Shown in pieces: positions 6,517 through 11,869 of a DNA stretch of 64,000 nt (its first letter is position 1; each line of letters starts with the position of its first letter). Under the pieces are notes generated by a model. The model was given only the letters and a program-made list of their open reading frames with translations, was not told the origin of the DNA and did not search any database. Source of the stretch: a virus. The stretch is from IMG/VR virus record IMGVR_UViG_3300034418_010679, positions 1-64,000 of that record; one strand, 5' to 3'. The position numbers and the translations under genes were made by a program.

Positions 6517-8238
6517 TTATACCAAGTCTTGGCAGATGACGAGACCGTACATGTCTGGACGGACCATCTTCTTGCCGTAGCGTGTCATCACACCCTTACG
6601 TGGTACGAAGTCCTCTGTGCCAAAGATGGTTGGAGTGACTTGTAGTGGGACGTAAGGAGCGTAGACGTAACCACTCTCTAGGAAGCTGTTGCCACGGCGA
6701 CCAACTAGAACCACGTTGCGTGGGAAGTATGGGTCAACGTAAACGTCGAGCTTCTTGGAGATGCTACCAACATTTACAGCACCGGCTGTGCCATTGGCGT
6801 CAACGGTAACGTTGGCGCGGAAGCCAGCAGTGAACTCTAGAATGTTAGCAACTTCTGGTGAGCAAACTACGAAGTTTGCACCACCGCGAACGGTGCGACG
6901 GTGAATCTCTGCGGACACATCGTTGATGGTCTCTAGAAGAGTCTCGTACCATTCGCTAACTGTACCTGTGAAGTCAGGGGCAGCAGTGCTTGCACCAACT
7001 TCAACACCAGTTACGCGGTTTACAAACTTACCAGCAGCGCGGCTCCAGTAGCGAACACCGGCACCCTTAGCAGCACCTTGAATGAGGTCGTTCAAGATTT
7101 CTTGATCGATCTCTAGGGCAATCTGCTCAGAGAGGATGCTTGTAAGCTCAACCTCAGCGTCGAGGTTGTGGTAGGCGTTGAGGTCTTGACCGAGTTCGGG
7201 TGACCACTTAGCCTTTAGCTTTTTGGTGTTGGCTGTGATAGCAACACTGTCCACCTTGATATCAATCTCGGGGATATTTGGTGTATTCTCAAGTGCCCAC
7301 TCGCTTTGACCGCGAACGGAACCAACAGCGTTGCTAGCTGCAAAGTTATCGGTGATTGCGGCATCAATAACTGTGATAGCTGTGAGTGCTGTTGTCAACT
7401 GAGCAGGTGTACGACCTGTCTCGCTAGCGGCTGGAATGGCAACCAAGAGAACTCTTGTGTTGTCATCGGGGTCGATGCGAGTTAGACGACGTAGAAGAAC
7501 CTCGTTTGATAGACCACCTGAGCTTAGGGTGATGAGGTTATCCATGTTAACGCCAGCGGCTGAGAGTGTTGCAACTGGAACAGAAGCAATAGCGCAGTTT
7601 GTACCGGAAGCAATATCGGGATCGTAACGGAGCAACTTATCAAAAGTATCTGAAGTTACTGTATCACCGTCGCCCATTGTGGACTCAGTTACACCAGCAC
7701 CGTAAGTACCGGAAGCAACAGCAGAAATGGTAACACTAACAGTGCCTGTTGGTGAAGCATAGCCGTTGTTGAGGGCGTATGGTCCCTTTTCAGCGTTGAG
7801 ACCTGGGAATGTTGAGCCGAGGTCAATACCACCAGTAATTTGAGCAGCTACAGCGCCGCCACCAAATAGTGAGGCGTTTTGGTCGTAACCAAGCTTCTCT
7901 GTACTGGAAGTGAAGTCCAAGAAGAAAATGAGACCTGATGGTAGGCTCATTGGTTGGACGGAAACGAGTTCGTTGGCGATTAGCTCACCAAAGACTCTGC
8001 GGACGATTGGGAATGCTACGGCACTAAAGCCTTCGACATCACCAGCCGCCATTGTGGAAGCTTCACGGAGAAGTTCCTTGGCTTGGTTCTCTAAGAGACG
8101 AGCCATGTTGTTTTTTGTAACATCGCTGTTGAGACCTTCAAGAAGTCCTGTGCCTTCCCACTTATTTAGTAGAGCAGCACCTTCCTTTTGGAGATCACGA
8201 GCAACAATGCCTTCTGTTAATTTTTCTAATGCAGACAT
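6517..8238 (-). CDS. gp23: Major capsid protein precursor (T4 gp23-like)
   Basis: 573 aa (T4 gp23 is 521 aa). It forms the hexamers of the head shell, HK97-type fold. The conserved entry into the mature fold is visible as FPIVRRVFGELIANELVSVQ then PMSLPSGLIFFL (residues about 76-108). The first ~60 residues are a helical propeptide. LRE|A at residues 57-60 fits the L/I-x-E site cut by T4-type prohead proteases, giving a mature protein of about 514 aa. The C-terminal VTPTIFGTEDFVPRKGVMTR and YGKKMVRPDMYG segments are also typical. A perfect AAGGAGG ribosome binding site precedes ATG 8238, and a strong terminator follows, fitting very high expression. Confidence 0.96.
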   Translation of the reverse strand: MSALEKLTEGIVARDLQKEGAALLNKWEGTGLLEGLNSDVTKNNMARLLENQAKELLREASTMAAGDVEGFSAVAFPIVRRVFGELIANELVSVQPMSLPSGLIFFLDFTSSTEKLGYDQNASLFGGGAVAAQITGGIDLGSTFPGLNAEKGPYALNNGYASPTGTVSVTISAVASGTYGAGVTESTMGDGDTVTSDTFDKLLRYDPDIASGTNCAIASVPVATLSAAGVNMDNLITLSSGGLSNEVLLRRLTRIDPDDNTRVLLVAIPAASETGRTPAQLTTALTAITVIDAAITDNFAASNAVGSVRGQSEWALENTPNIPEIDIKVDSVAITANTKKLKAKWSPELGQDLNAYHNLDAEVELTSILSEQIALEIDQEILNDLIQGAAKGAGVRYWSRAAGKFVNRVTGVEVGASTAAPDFTGTVSEWYETLLETINDVSAEIHRRTVRGGANFVVCSPEVANILEFTAGFRANVTVDANGTAGAVNVGSISKKLDVYVDPYFPRNVVLVGRRGNSFLESGYVYAPYVPLQVTPTIFGTEDFVPRKGVMTRYGKKMVRPDMYGLVICQDLV

Positions 8239-8254: not shown

Positions 8255-9325
8255 TTATTCTATTCCTGCGAGCTTGCGCCAATTCTTAAACATTGGAGCT
8301 TGCTCTTGTTGTTTATCTTCTCTCTTGCGAGAGGAGACGACGAGGGAACGAGTACGGCTTACAGCTTCAGTCAGTGATTCTGGTGCTGTTTTTTCATTGG
8401 TGCTACCCACTGAGTCTTTCATTGTCTCATAAACCAGTTTGGTTTCCTCAATTGTTTTGGCTTTTGCCAAGGACTCGACAATTTTACTTTTTTGACGAGT
8501 ATTAAGTTCTTGTGAAGATAGTGTTTGAGTTGTGTAGAAAAGTCTAGCGTTCTGAAGATTTACTTCTGCGGCTTTGGTTTTCATCTCAAGCAATACTTCT
8601 TTTGCTTTCTTGAGCTTTGTTTTTGCTTCTTGTAGCTGCTCGGAAAGCATCTTGTTTTGGTCTTGTAGTTCTTTATTTTTCTCTTGCTCTTCATCAACTG
8701 CGGCAGCTAGTGCGGCAAGGTCAGCGTTCTCAGCACGGTCACCGGCTGTGGAGCCAGCCCAACCGTTGTTGGGGTGCTGGGACTTAATGTCAACGTTGAC
8801 TTCTTCTAGAAGGGCGTCGAGTTGTTCTTCTGTTAGGGCATCGATGGCTTCATCAAGACCTTCGCCTTCTTCCATCATTTCGCCTGCTGGCTCTAGGAGT
8901 TCTTCACGGTCGATAGCAGCCTCTGCTTCGGCGGGAACTTCTTCTGCTTCTTCCTCGGGAGTAGAAGCTTCGTAGTCAGCCATTAGCTCATCGAAGTCAA
9001 TAACTATTTCTTCTTGGTCGTCTTCAAGGGCTTGGGCAAGAGCAACAGTTGCTGCGTCTGGGACTTGTGCCATTAGTGAGTCATCACCAGTTGGTTCAGC
9101 AGGCTCGGCGTCCATTTCCATGTCCATAGCCATTTCTTCACCACCTTCGGCAGTCTCCTCCTCGGTGGCTTCTAACTCTTCTTCTTCGTCCTGCTCAAGA
9201 AGGTTCTCCAAAGATTCTTTTAGTTCTACGGAATACTTCTCAATAAGTTGCTTCTCAGCATTACGAAGGGCTGTTTCTTTTAGCTCTTTCGCATCTGCTA
9301 TTGCCTTTTCAAACAATGATGACAT
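8255..9325 (-). CDS. gp22: Prohead core scaffolding protein (T4 gp22-like)
   Basis: 356 aa. The sequence is dominated by charged helix: an N-terminal amphipathic helix (1-45), a strongly acidic middle (about 45-180, runs of E and D), then a coiled coil at about 205-262 (EEQEKNKELQDQNKMLSEQL onward). The C-terminus ends in FKNWRKLAGIE; short basic-hydrophobic tails of this type end many T4-like scaffold proteins and contact the capsid protein. It sits immediately before the capsid gene, as gp22 does before gp23. It should be destroyed by the prohead protease; LTE|A occurs near residue 319. It starts a transcription unit: a candidate late promoter lies 33 nt upstream. Confidence 0.85.
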   Translation of the reverse strand: MSSLFEKAIADAKELKETALRNAEKQLIEKYSVELKESLENLLEQDEEEELEATEEETAEGGEEMAMDMEMDAEPAEPTGDDSLMAQVPDAATVALAQALEDDQEEIVIDFDELMADYEASTPEEEAEEVPAEAEAAIDREELLEPAGEMMEEGEGLDEAIDALTEEQLDALLEEVNVDIKSQHPNNGWAGSTAGDRAENADLAALAAAVDEEQEKNKELQDQNKMLSEQLQEAKTKLKKAKEVLLEMKTKAAEVNLQNARLFYTTQTLSSQELNTRQKSKIVESLAKAKTIEETKLVYETMKDSVGSTNEKTAPESLTEAVSRTRSLVVSSRKREDKQQEQAPMFKNWRKLAGIE

Positions 9326-9386: not shown

Positions 9387-9593
9387 TTATTTAGCTTTTT
9401 GCTCGTTGGTTATCTTTCTAGCGATTCTTTTTCTGCGAAGTTTTTTTAATCTTCTGGTCTTGGATGGCTTGACATAGAACCTTCTTTCTCTTACTTCGTC
9501 TATGATGCCTTCTTTCTTTACTTTTCTTGAGAACCTTTTTATTAGTCTCTCGCCGGGTTCGTTGCGGCGAGCTTCCACTTTAACGTGTGCCAT
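9387..9593 (-). CDS. rpsU: Ribosomal protein bS21, phage-encoded
   Basis: 68 aa, the usual length of bS21 (E. coli 71 aa). Conserved bS21 features are visible in order: a short VKV strand, NEPGERLIKRFSRKVKKEGI, then a DEVRERRFYVKPS segment with the invariant R-x-x-x-K-x-G, EVR-x-R-x-FY and KP, and a lysine/arginine-rich C-terminal helix. bS21 binds the 30S platform near the anti-Shine-Dalgarno end of 16S rRNA and aids initiation. Phage bS21 genes are known from environmental phages and are thought to exchange with the host protein. Here it lies inside the head gene block, one base after the preceding stop, with an AGAGGT ribosome binding site. Confidence 0.93.
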   Translation of the reverse strand: MAHVKVEARRNEPGERLIKRFSRKVKKEGIIDEVRERRFYVKPSKTRRLKKLRRKRIARKITNEQKAK

Positions 9594-9594
9594 A

Positions 9595-10023
9595 TTACCT
9601 CTTTTTAGCTGTGGCTAGGGTCTTCCAGTTTCTCCCTCCAAGAGCCATGATGCCTGAAATGTCCACACCAGGGTCTTTTGCACTTACGCCAGCCATAGGA
9701 CTAGCGGAGGCTGCACCTTCAACGGGTGCGTCCATTGGTTCGATTCCCTCAAAAATGTTTGAATACGCACCTTCGCCTACTGCTTTTGTAAGCATTTGTC
9801 TTTTCTCGGCAAGGCGCTTCTTTTGTAGTTCTATTGCTTCTTGGTTTGTGTTTCTTTGTGGTTCTGGTGTAGGCTCTGGTTGTTTTGCTTCAACAATAAC
9901 ATTGCCCATTCCTTTAGCCACCTCTGCTACAACCTTTGTAAGAATGCCTTCCTCGATAATAACTTCATGGATGCACTCTTTGATAATGGGTTTAATAAGT
10001 TTTTTTAGTTGTTCTCGCTTCAT
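9595..10023 (-). CDS. Putative internal head protein with protease-cleavable leader
   Basis: 142 aa from the ATG at 10023, which overlaps the upstream stop as ATGA; a TTG start 15 nt earlier is possible but unlikely. No family recognised. The N-terminus, MKREQLKKLIK onward, matches the leader of three neighbouring genes (M-x-x-x-Q-L-x-x-x-I-K pattern) and ends at IEE|G (residues 23-26), an L/I-x-E site. A proline-rich linker follows (about 45-60), then a QKKRLAEKRQ helix, and a C-terminus rich in A, G and P (about 80-142). The best inference is a prohead core or internal protein delivered into the capsid and trimmed by the adjacent protease. Confidence 0.6.
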   Translation of the reverse strand: MKREQLKKLIKPIIKECIHEVIIEEGILTKVVAEVAKGMGNVIVEAKQPEPTPEPQRNTNQEAIELQKKRLAEKRQMLTKAVGEGAYSNIFEGIEPMDAPVEGAASASPMAGVSAKDPGVDISGIMALGGRNWKTLATAKKR

Positions 10024-10445
10024 AGTTCTCTCAACCAATCGCAGTCAAACTTTGCTGCTATTTTTTCGATCTTTTGCATCTCGATAACATCATAACCCGT
10101 TGGGTCTGTGAGAGCGCCATAGCTTGCTCTCTCGTGCGTTTGCTTCAAACGAGCGCACTTTCTTCTTTGCTCGCCAGCGTCCATTTCATTCATAGGTTCG
10201 CCGCTTGTTAGTAAGTAGTCTCTTGCGCTGTTGAGATAAGCAGAAGCCAAAGCCACTTTCTTCATCCACCAAGAAGGAAGGTCTTGCTCTGCGCTGAAAC
10301 CTTCTAGGTGTTGTAGAATATCTTGACTATCCTCGATGGCGAGTTTTGCTTGACGACGGGCAGAAGATACATCTGTGTGTCCGTCTTCGTTGAGAACTGC
10401 TTGTAGTTCTTCTTTGATAAGTTTTCTCAACTGTTCTTTATTCAT
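10020..10445 (-). CDS. Putative internal head protein with protease-cleavable leader
   Basis: 141 aa; the start ATG at 10445 overlaps the upstream stop as ATGA. The N-terminal MNKEQLRKLIKEELQAVLNE is the shared leader, with LNE|D at residues 18-21 as the predicted cleavage site. The remainder is mainly helical, with SARRQAKLAIEDSQDILQHL, then LPSWWMKKVALASAYLNSAR, then a charged segment containing two cysteines (about 98 and 134). SWWMKKVALA-type helices occur in unnamed proteins of marine T4-like phages, but no function is known to me. Co-location with the protease and the shared leader point to a head-internal role. Confidence 0.62.
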   Translation of the reverse strand: MNKEQLRKLIKEELQAVLNEDGHTDVSSARRQAKLAIEDSQDILQHLEGFSAEQDLPSWWMKKVALASAYLNSARDYLLTSGEPMNEMDAGEQRRKCARLKQTHERASYGALTDPTGYDVIEMQKIEKIAAKFDCDWLREL

Positions 10446-10732
10446 AGGTCAAAGTCTCCACCCAAGTAAAGAAGTCTGTCTCTCATAAGTCTGTTAGCGA
10501 GGTTCTTTAGTTCGGGTTTCATTAGGGGGTAGCCTATTGTTTTTTCCCATTTAGCGGGAATGTCTTCTTTATCAATAGAACCACCAAACATAGTCTTTAC
10601 TACTTCAGCAAACTTTTTGTAGTCGTCCTCGGAGACTTCTACGTCTTTGAGACCAACATTGTCGAGCATACCTTCGGTGACGACTGCTTGTATTTCTTCT
10701 TTGATTATTTCTCTTAGTTGGTTCTCGTTCAT
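10442..10732 (-). CDS. Putative small internal head protein with cleavable leader
   Basis: 96 aa; the start ATG directly follows the protease stop (TAAATG). The leader MNENQLREIIKEEIQAVVTE ends in VTE|G at residues 18-21, the same position as in two sibling genes. The predicted mature part of 76 aa contains a DYKKFAEVVKTMF helix and ELKNLANRLMRDRLLYLGG near the C-terminus; it is not similar to the mature parts of its siblings. Function unknown; a capsid-delivered protein is inferred from the leader and the neighbours. Confidence 0.6.
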   Translation of the reverse strand: MNENQLREIIKEEIQAVVTEGMLDNVGLKDVEVSEDDYKKFAEVVKTMFGGSIDKEDIPAKWEKTIGYPLMKPELKNLANRLMRDRLLYLGGDFDL

Positions 10733-11311
10733 TTATTTTCTTCCGACAAGAATGTCATTGAGGGCGCGGTTGATTCTGTCAGCCTTGCCAAATATTTCTC
10801 TTTCCTTTGCCTCTTTCATAAGGTATGCACCGGGGGTGGATGCCTCTGAAACAAGGTCAAAGCAAATAAGTGTGAAGTCGTCCTCTACCATAGTTAGCCC
10901 ACGCTCTTGACGAGTTGAACCTAAACCACGAGAGGAGATACCCAGTGAGCCACCGTCCAAAACAATTTGTTGGGCGATTTTGCCTGCTGGGGTATTGAGT
11001 AGTTTTAGTGTTCCGTAAACTGCATCGCCATCCATATGGATTTCTGTTACAAGGTGTGATGCGTTTTTTAGTTCCACGACTGATGTATCGGGGTGATCGA
11101 GTTCTCCGTATGCTCTGCGGTCACGAACTATTTTTTTGTAGTTCTCGACTTCTCTTTGGAGAGCGCGGGGTGGGTAAACTCTGCCGTTGCCGTTCTTTTT
11201 GTTGGCGTGTTGAAGGAGACCTTTTAGGTAAACGAAACCATCGTCAGCACGCTTGGCTTCCGTTAGTGTTTCAAGTTGAAAGTATTCTATTAGAACTTGT
11301 TTCTTTGACAT
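10733..11311 (-). CDS. gp21: Prohead maturation protease (T4 gp21-like)
   Basis: 192 aa (T4 gp21 is 212 aa). This serine protease of the U9/herpesvirus assemblin type degrades the scaffold and trims capsid proteins. Visible features are GRVYPPRALQREVENY, GELDHPDTSVVELKNASHLV with the catalytic His at 73, and GGSLGISSRGLGS with the catalytic Ser at 126-127. The N-terminus contains its own L/I-x-E site, LTE|A at 16-19, consistent with self-processing. The ribosome binding site AAGGGG stands 9 nt before ATG 11311. It lies in the middle of four genes that carry the same kind of site in their leaders. Confidence 0.93.
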   Translation of the reverse strand: MSKKQVLIEYFQLETLTEAKRADDGFVYLKGLLQHANKKNGNGRVYPPRALQREVENYKKIVRDRRAYGELDHPDTSVVELKNASHLVTEIHMDGDAVYGTLKLLNTPAGKIAQQIVLDGGSLGISSRGLGSTRQERGLTMVEDDFTLICFDLVSEASTPGAYLMKEAKEREIFGKADRINRALNDILVGRK

Positions 11312-11313
11312 AG

Positions 11314-11388
11314 CTAAGACCCCTTGCAGCAGTTTGTTGGTGGGCGAAGCATCCAGTGATTATCTACCCAAATGTTTATGTTGCTCAT
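11314..11388 (-). CDS. Possible 24-aa micro-ORF filling the gap before the protease
   Basis: 25 codons including TAG. The ATG at 11388 overlaps the TGA of the preceding 65-aa gene as ATGA, a GACGGAG sequence precedes it, and the stop ends 2 nt before the protease start. This is the only gap of 55 nt or more here that lacks the late promoter motif. The peptide begins MSNINIWVDNHW, has two prolines and ends in CCKGS. Translation is inferred only from the coupling and exact fit; it may be chance. Confidence 0.35.
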   Translation of the reverse strand: MSNINIWVDNHWMLRPPTNCCKGS

Positions 11389-11582
11389 TCTCCGTCCCTT
11401 AGAGCTTTTACAATAGCTGCAAGACCTGCTGCCATTGCTCTTGCTCTTTCGTCGCTAACGTCACCTTTGTTTAGCTCTCTAATTGTGCGGTCAATCATTT
11501 GATACTTATCAAAATCTGACGCTTCGCTAAGAAGGTTTTGAACCTCTTCTTTAATCATTTCTTTTAGCTTTACTTTGTCCAT
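11385..11582 (-). CDS. Small putative internal head protein with cleavable leader
   Basis: 65 aa. The leader MDKVKLKEMIKEEVQNLLSE ends in LSE|A at residues 18-21, at exactly the same position as in the two genes after the protease. The predicted mature part of 45 aa is helical and charged (DKYQMIDRTIRELNKGDVSD, then an alanine-rich ERARAMAAGLAAIVKALRDG). It overlaps the membrane protein gene upstream by 13 nt (ATGGACAAAGTAA). No family recognised. A role inside the prohead is inferred from the leader and location. Confidence 0.6.
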   Translation of the reverse strand: MDKVKLKEMIKEEVQNLLSEASDFDKYQMIDRTIRELNKGDVSDERARAMAAGLAAIVKALRDGE

Positions 11583-11869
11583 TTTATTTTTATTCCTTCA
11601 TCGTCAAATACTTGACAGAGTATGTAACTTGTCCCAGAACTTAGACACCCTAATAAAATAGGTGTTACGAAGTTTGGTTCAAATGTAAATAGTGGTGTAA
11701 AAGGAGAAATGACGCAAAGAAAGAACCCTACCCAAAAGCCCATACACATTGGGCAATGGAAGAGTTCTCCAAGTTTTCCTTTTGTTGGTCTTATTGGTTT
11801 TAGTATTGAGCCATAGACAAGTATTTGTGTGAGCCCATAGGCTACTAAAATAAATGTTAAAAGTTCCAT
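11570..11869 (-). CDS. Small membrane protein with CPMC motif (DUF1360-like)
   Basis: 99 aa. Hydrophobic segments lie at about residues 2-19, 43-61 and 66-85, so it probably spans the membrane two or three times. The central GKLGELFHCPMCMGFWVGFF resembles the 'L-x-x-C-P-x-C-x-x-x-W-V-G' signature of DUF1360-type small membrane proteins, which are also found in phages. Function unknown. It lies between a putative prohead core gene and the leader-bearing genes, starting in a TAATG junction at 11869. A role in the host membrane (exclusion or assembly site) is only a guess. Confidence 0.55.
   Translation of the reverse strand: MELLTFILVAYGLTQILVYGSILKPIRPTKGKLGELFHCPMCMGFWVGFFLCVISPFTPLFTFEPNFVTPILLGCLSSGTSYILCQVFDDEGIKIKWTK

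Follow-up and report, generated by a model that had tools for sequence, protein, structure and literature searches.

A shared 20-residue leader as a candidate capsid-targeting propeptide of exchangeable cargo genes around a viral prohead protease

Small genes flanking a gp21-type prohead protease gene in this virus open with a common 20-residue leader, and we consider it likely, at a probability of roughly 80%, that this shared N-terminus is a capsid-targeting propeptide removed by the protease. The initial annotation had proposed a modular head-loading leader ending in a protease site, and every sequence test that could be run supported the idea: the leader is shared, it ends abruptly at a site that is kept across unrelated cargoes, cargo is exchanged at that end, and the leader accompanies the S77 protease and is a viral feature nearly absent from cellular genomes. 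These points are demonstrated at the level of sequence; docking, packaging, cleavage, ejection and an effector function of the cargoes are inferred.

The DNA analyzed here (the window) is a 64-kb portion of a 70.5-kb virus record. Its head genes lie on the minus strand in the order terminase, portal, 269-aa gene, 168/177-aa genes, DUF1360, 65-aa gene, protease, 96-aa gene, 141-aa gene, 142-aa gene, bS21, scaffold-like protein and major capsid protein, with the following coordinates (scores are bits against the leader profile described below):

11570-11869, minus strand: DUF1360 membrane-type protein, between the portal and protease genes
11385-11582, minus strand: 65-aa leader-cargo gene; leader 11523-11582, predicted cut after LSE20 (11523-11531), score 23.1
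10733-11311, minus strand: prohead protease, Peptidase_S77 (gp21 type); PF03420, E = 6.9e-23; PHROG 207
10442-10732, minus strand: 96-aa leader-cargo gene; leader 10673-10732, predicted cut after VTE20 (10673-10681), score 33.6
10020-10445, minus strand: 141-aa leader-cargo gene; leader 10386-10445, predicted cut after LNE20 (10386-10394), score 40.2
9595-10023, minus strand: 142-aa conserved gene with a similar N-terminal helix; IHE as I-x-E20 at 9964-9972, score 9.4 alone
9387-9593, minus strand: bS21 ribosomal protein, passing the family cut-off
8255-9325, minus strand: scaffold-like acidic helical protein in the gp22 position (between the protease and capsid genes), assigned from position and sequence only
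6517-8238, minus strand: major capsid protein (Gp23); PF07068, E = 1e-74; LRE at 8062-8070

The earlier identification of a gp21-type protease gene among the leader genes was borne out (81.6 bits against a curated cut-off of 27 for Pfam PF03420; E = 2e-48 to PHROG 207, head maturation protease). Both cleavage motifs quoted with it were also located, LTE↓A at residues 16-19 of the protease itself (LTE at 11258-11266) and the precursor site LRE↓A at residues 57-60 of the capsid protein; capsid precursors of near relatives have a small or aliphatic residue after ELLRE. Across leader-bearing contigs, nearly all proteases have their own [LI]xE[ASG] just before the catalytic domain and capsid precursors have ELLRE or a similar motif, and these protease and capsid sites therefore provide an independent estimate of the cleavage motif. 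The scaffold-like protein had no family match in Pfam or PHROGs. From the DUF1360 gene to bS21 the genes overlap or nearly abut, except for a gap between the 65-aa gene and the protease, and this tight packing makes co-production with head proteins likely. A DUF1360 protein between the portal and protease genes is kept in most near relatives; a bS21 gene lies between the 142-aa gene and the scaffold gene in many relatives too, and at the equivalent place in Microcystis phage Mel-JY01 (PP395634).

The four N-termini read MDKVKLKEMIKEEVQNLLSE↓A in the 65-aa protein (LSE at residues 18-20), MNENQLREIIKEEIQAVVTE↓G in the 96-aa protein (VTE at 18-20), MNKEQLRKLIKEELQAVLNE↓D in the 141-aa protein (LNE at 18-20) and MKREQLKKLIKPIIKECIHE↓V in the 142-aa protein (IHE at 18-20). 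A leader profile trained only on leaders of other viruses, with near relatives of the window excluded, gave these four the scores listed above; the next-best place in the 64 kb scored 2.9 bits, 100 codon-block shuffles reached a maximum of 9.6 with a mean of -0.9, and the other 6.5 kb of the record held no score above 6. That four small minus-strand ORFs open with one common helix, and that three of them have L/V-x-E at residues 18-20 (LNE↓D, VTE↓G, LSE↓A), was thus correctly observed in the initial annotation. The genes had also been described as adjacent; they do lie side by side, although the protease gene separates the first (65 aa) from the second (96 aa). The 141-aa gene retains its leader and LNE↓D in relatives L008, L009 and L014, and the 96-aa gene differs from that of L008 mostly by synonymous changes.

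For the fourth gene, IEE↓G at residues 23-25 had been taken as the cut site, but this position is unconserved, reading IES, VNE, VGE, FEE, YEE, AEK or LES in orthologues, and IHE at 18-20 had been overlooked. We took the ATG at 10023 as the start (an automatic ORF listing prefers an upstream TTG at 10038). On its own this leader is marginal, scoring below the shuffle maximum, so its case rests on orthologues: 13 of 14 have [IVM]-x-E at residues 18-20 in simple register, and the remaining one (L029) has VKE and then an insertion. In most relatives with enough sequence to judge, the orthologue comes after the protease; about 90 residues into the protein, FE↓G is invariant, with I or V before it, and is possibly a second cut. 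Structure prediction returned a mainly helical protein at low confidence. Of the four-member family first proposed, three genes (65, 96 and 141 aa) read as swappable leader-cargo genes, whereas the fourth (142 aa) probably encodes a conserved core protein or component with a leader-like helix rather than swappable cargo. We also considered this gene as an orthologue of a baseplate-locus family (A6) and did not adopt the assignment: the profile match (P = 3.6e-7, probability 93%) is perhaps largely helix-driven, and in the reverse test A6 did not retrieve the 142-aa gene in the genome of the window virus.

Relatives with proteases at least 96% identical have differing sets of leader genes, six of them in L008. 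In L011, an unrelated 219-aa cargo replaces the 96-aa cargo behind an identical leader; compared with the L008 96-aa gene, 60 of 60 leader nucleotides are identical and identity is at chance level by about nucleotide 75. The 63-aa gene of L011 and the 66-aa gene of L008 are likewise identical over 60/60 nucleotides and then match at 3/15, and the slot of the 65-aa gene holds the same leader with different cargo in relatives. Judged from these alignments, cargoes are exchanged at the predicted cut site. The side-by-side arrangement, and the fact that the 141-aa protein used as a query matches the 96-aa gene (E = 1e-4 over 65 residues), would also suit tandem duplicates of one gene whose 3' parts decayed or diverged; with cargo changing abruptly behind identical leader DNA, and with many lengths and at least 152 unrelated clusters carrying the leader (see below), this explanation is already disfavored and we regard it as very improbable. 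We give almost no credence to the first 60 bases being a DNA or RNA element, such as a recombination site or translation signal, instead of a peptide signal. Leader DNA is indeed identical between swapped cargoes, and may guide homologous recombination as a by-product, but from gene to gene within the window part of the difference between leaders lies in synonymous codons, which argues that the peptide is what is selected, and across viruses the leader peptide is conserved with free codon use.

A peptide signal that ends in a protease site also fits the spread of the leader in IMG/VR, where degenerate DNA patterns for the first 13 codons matched at least 120 stretches, compared with 1 match for a scrambled version; a similar but narrower pattern gave 3 matches, all on small contigs, in 257 Gb of prokaryote genomes. 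The patterns imposed only codons 1, 2 or 3, 6, 7 and 9-13, so residues 14-21 are free evidence. Clustering of cargoes was done after removal of native N-termini and of the baseplate-locus family; terminase, portal-like and HK97-type capsid proteins that matched the DNA pattern were among those judged by eye to have native N-termini and removed. The samples are not taxonomically random, and counts refer to the matches listed. The leader-bearing proteins, up to 12 per contig, fall into at least 152 unrelated cargo clusters with the consensus MKKSELRQIIKEEISKVLNE↓. Among the matches listed (152 clusters), the columns standing out past residue 13 are I/V/L14, V17, L18 and E20, and column information is 1.78 bits at E20, 0.33 at residue 21 and about 0.1 from residue 22 on. 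[LIV]xE with its E at residue 20 occurs in 98 of these 152 clusters (2.3 expected), and counts at positions 22-57 average 2.0 with a maximum of 5. In about 18 further clusters the E of the motif is residue 17 or 19, so that its position shifts along with leader length; A, G, S, D or N follows the cut in 69%, compared with a background of 32%, and about one-quarter of the clusters have no L-x-E near the leader's end.

It is possible, if unlikely, that the helix serves for docking of proteins on the core or shell but stays uncut, L-x-E being merely the end of an amphipathic helix. The amphipathic pattern is clear, and besides the quarter of clusters without a site there is an isolate, Flavobacterium phage immuto, with three leader genes of which none has a site at residue 20. 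What is hard to reconcile with an uncut helix is that E20 is the strongest column past residue 14 yet lies off the hydrophobic face, that the site shifts to E17 or E19 where leaders are shorter and has a small or polar residue next to it on the cargo side, and that S77 is enriched in leader contigs. Two observations concern the extent of the leader family. A randomly chosen, S77-positive contig of 235 kb (L386) has leader genes at L386:12811 and L386:7061 with a slightly longer start, MKIKRGRLQQIIREELTRVLAE, and the family is thus broader than the patterns used; L219:5220-5669 is a single ORF with two copies of the leader, one N-terminal and the other about 57 residues further on (MKKSELRQIIKEEVKKVL), and thus resembles a fusion of two leader-cargo genes. 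We found no published description of this leader, subscription papers being outside our coverage, and the leader, the 141-aa protein and the recurring cargoes (see below) had no match among named phages, although the 20-aa query was possibly masked by a low-complexity filter.

Removal by the prohead protease is further suggested by co-occurrence. Among contigs of 60 kb or more, an S77 protease was found in 24 of 29 with leaders and in 5 of 19 taken at random (p = 1.9e-4), two of these five being weak matches inside longer proteins. Shared ancestry may explain part of the association, and the random contigs have a different taxonomic mix. Leaders lay within 15 kb of the protease in 41 of 80 cases (22 expected), some genes being far from it; all 80 were on the same strand as the protease, to which we attach little weight because genomes of this kind often have their genes on a single strand. 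The leader was absent from the two S77 phages examined, T4 and cyanophage P-SSM4, and from three of four random S77 contigs tested for it.

The distant genes would also be accommodated if the helix were an address for a target outside the head, such as the tail or baseplate, host RNA polymerase or the membrane. Moreover, a related helix starts a gene family (MKLDxLRKIIREEVRAAVKEELQDMLNEAV) that adjoins baseplate genes recognized by eye as gp25/gp6-like; that locus does not readily suggest head loading, so the helix may have other uses. Since leaders are enriched near the protease and flank it in the window, end in its site motif and accompany S77, we nevertheless find a non-head address quite unlikely. 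Members of this baseplate-locus family at L087:7940-8362, L081:9099-9548, L103:135-608 and L073:469-939 lie directly before the gp25/gp6-like genes, and many members have a C-terminal G[IL]D[IL]SKL.

Under the capsid-targeting reading, the 20-residue amphipathic helix would dock a freshly synthesized protein on the core or scaffold of the prohead, with the scaffold-like protein (8255-9325) as its proposed partner, and the docked protein would be enclosed while the shell forms. The neighboring S77 protease would then cut after L/V/I-x-E20, or after E17 or E19 in variants, and the mature cargo would be freed inside the head and probably ejected with the DNA. By analogy with T4, docking on the scaffold would fall to the amphipathic front half and cutting by S77 to the end. 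As targeting would lie wholly in the first 20 codons, the leader would serve as a fusion point behind which cargoes are exchanged. Nearly all of these phages are uncultured, and we found no virion proteomics data on them.

What the cargoes do can be approached only in part. The four window proteins gave nothing informative against Pfam, PHROGs and NCBIfam, nor did the 141-aa protein against PDB sequences; in a scan of 112 cargo proteins nearly all were without a convincing Pfam match, and PHROGs matches were only to families without function. One cargo recurs in other viruses (L101:2700-3350, L105:12872-13501, L156:8171-8839 and L256:10754-11170), with the leader site LNE↓G or LSE↓G in 4/4. 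Its best score against Tox-ART-HYD1 was 20.8 bits, under the Pfam gathering cut-off of 25, and its structural model (mean pLDDT 68) came closest to Tpt1/KptA (E = 7.4e-4, TM only 0.35-0.41). Tpt1/KptA are NAD-using enzymes with an ADP-ribosyltransferase fold, and from its model the recurring cargo looks like a fold of this type. In this model residues 3-20, the leader, form a helix apart from the rest, and confidence is low over residues 18-22, the predicted place of the cut. Two further cargo-like proteins, L214:1902-2615 and one of immuto (L415:5323-5763), resemble protein-kinase folds by eye, with a glycine-rich loop followed by V-x-K; this reading has no Pfam support for L214.

The lack of a common fold makes injected phage proteins difficult to detect, and nearly all the leader-tagged cargoes are without a known family. 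We lean modestly toward the wider proposition that a single 20-residue tag marks a large, mostly uncharacterized set of injected proteins in many uncultured aquatic phages with gp21-type proteases. If true, the tag alone would allow hundreds of unknown phage genes to be called as packaged, injected effectors. The leader supplies a simple sequence rule and, for every tagged protein, a predicted mature N-terminus, together with candidates for anti-defense or take-over proteins; it might also be usable as a packaging tag in phages beyond T4. The T-even internal proteins were discovered via their common signal (PMC12373910), and the leader provides an equivalent entry point to uncultured environmental phages.

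The T4 capsid-targeting sequence (CTS) has 10-19 residues and an L/I-x-E cut, and diverse injected proteins have only this CTS in common (PMC9026906, PMC3012670); its front residues direct packaging and its L/I-x-E end directs processing (PMC9026906). As with the CTS of IPI, IPII and IPIII, the present leader is a short N-terminal element on otherwise unrelated small proteins, ends in an L/I-x-E-type site and occurs with an S77 protease in the same virus, but it is about 20 residues long with a different, well-defined consensus. At E ≤ 10 the leader profile matched nothing in the T4 genome, and homology to the CTS is not shown; our best reading, by analogy, is that the leader would work like the CTS without having been shown to be the same element, with packaging, cleavage and ejection inferred. 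T-even internal proteins are described as diverse defense proteins with only the CTS in common (PMC3012670); Ip1-3 of T4 each block a different type IV restriction enzyme, and at least 10 Ips are reported from T-even phages (PMC12373910). Their repertoire varies among close relatives (PMC9026906, PMC3012670, PMC12373910), as it does here. T4 has the head-gene order 20-67-68-21-22-23, and its three ip genes are reported from two distinct loci, whereas here leader genes flank the protease and reach 12 per contig and at least 152 cargo clusters. T4 Alt, which has cleaved propeptides, is an ADP-ribosyltransferase carried in the head, ejected and processed by gp21 (PMC9026906). The recurring cargo with a predicted ADP-ribosyltransferase-type fold is similar in this respect but is not in the window, is closest to Tpt1/KptA at moderate model confidence, and has no demonstrated homology to Alt. 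In phiKZ and SPN3US, a gp21-like protease likewise processes several inner-head proteins, cutting them behind a short x-E motif (PMC5694885), but those propeptides are mostly more than 100 residues long with an A/S-x-E motif, whereas here a single 20-residue leader with L/I/V-x-E is reused. With docking, packaging, cleavage and ejection inferred by analogy, this is the logic of the T-even internal proteins built on another leader, with a larger and almost unexplored set of cargoes.
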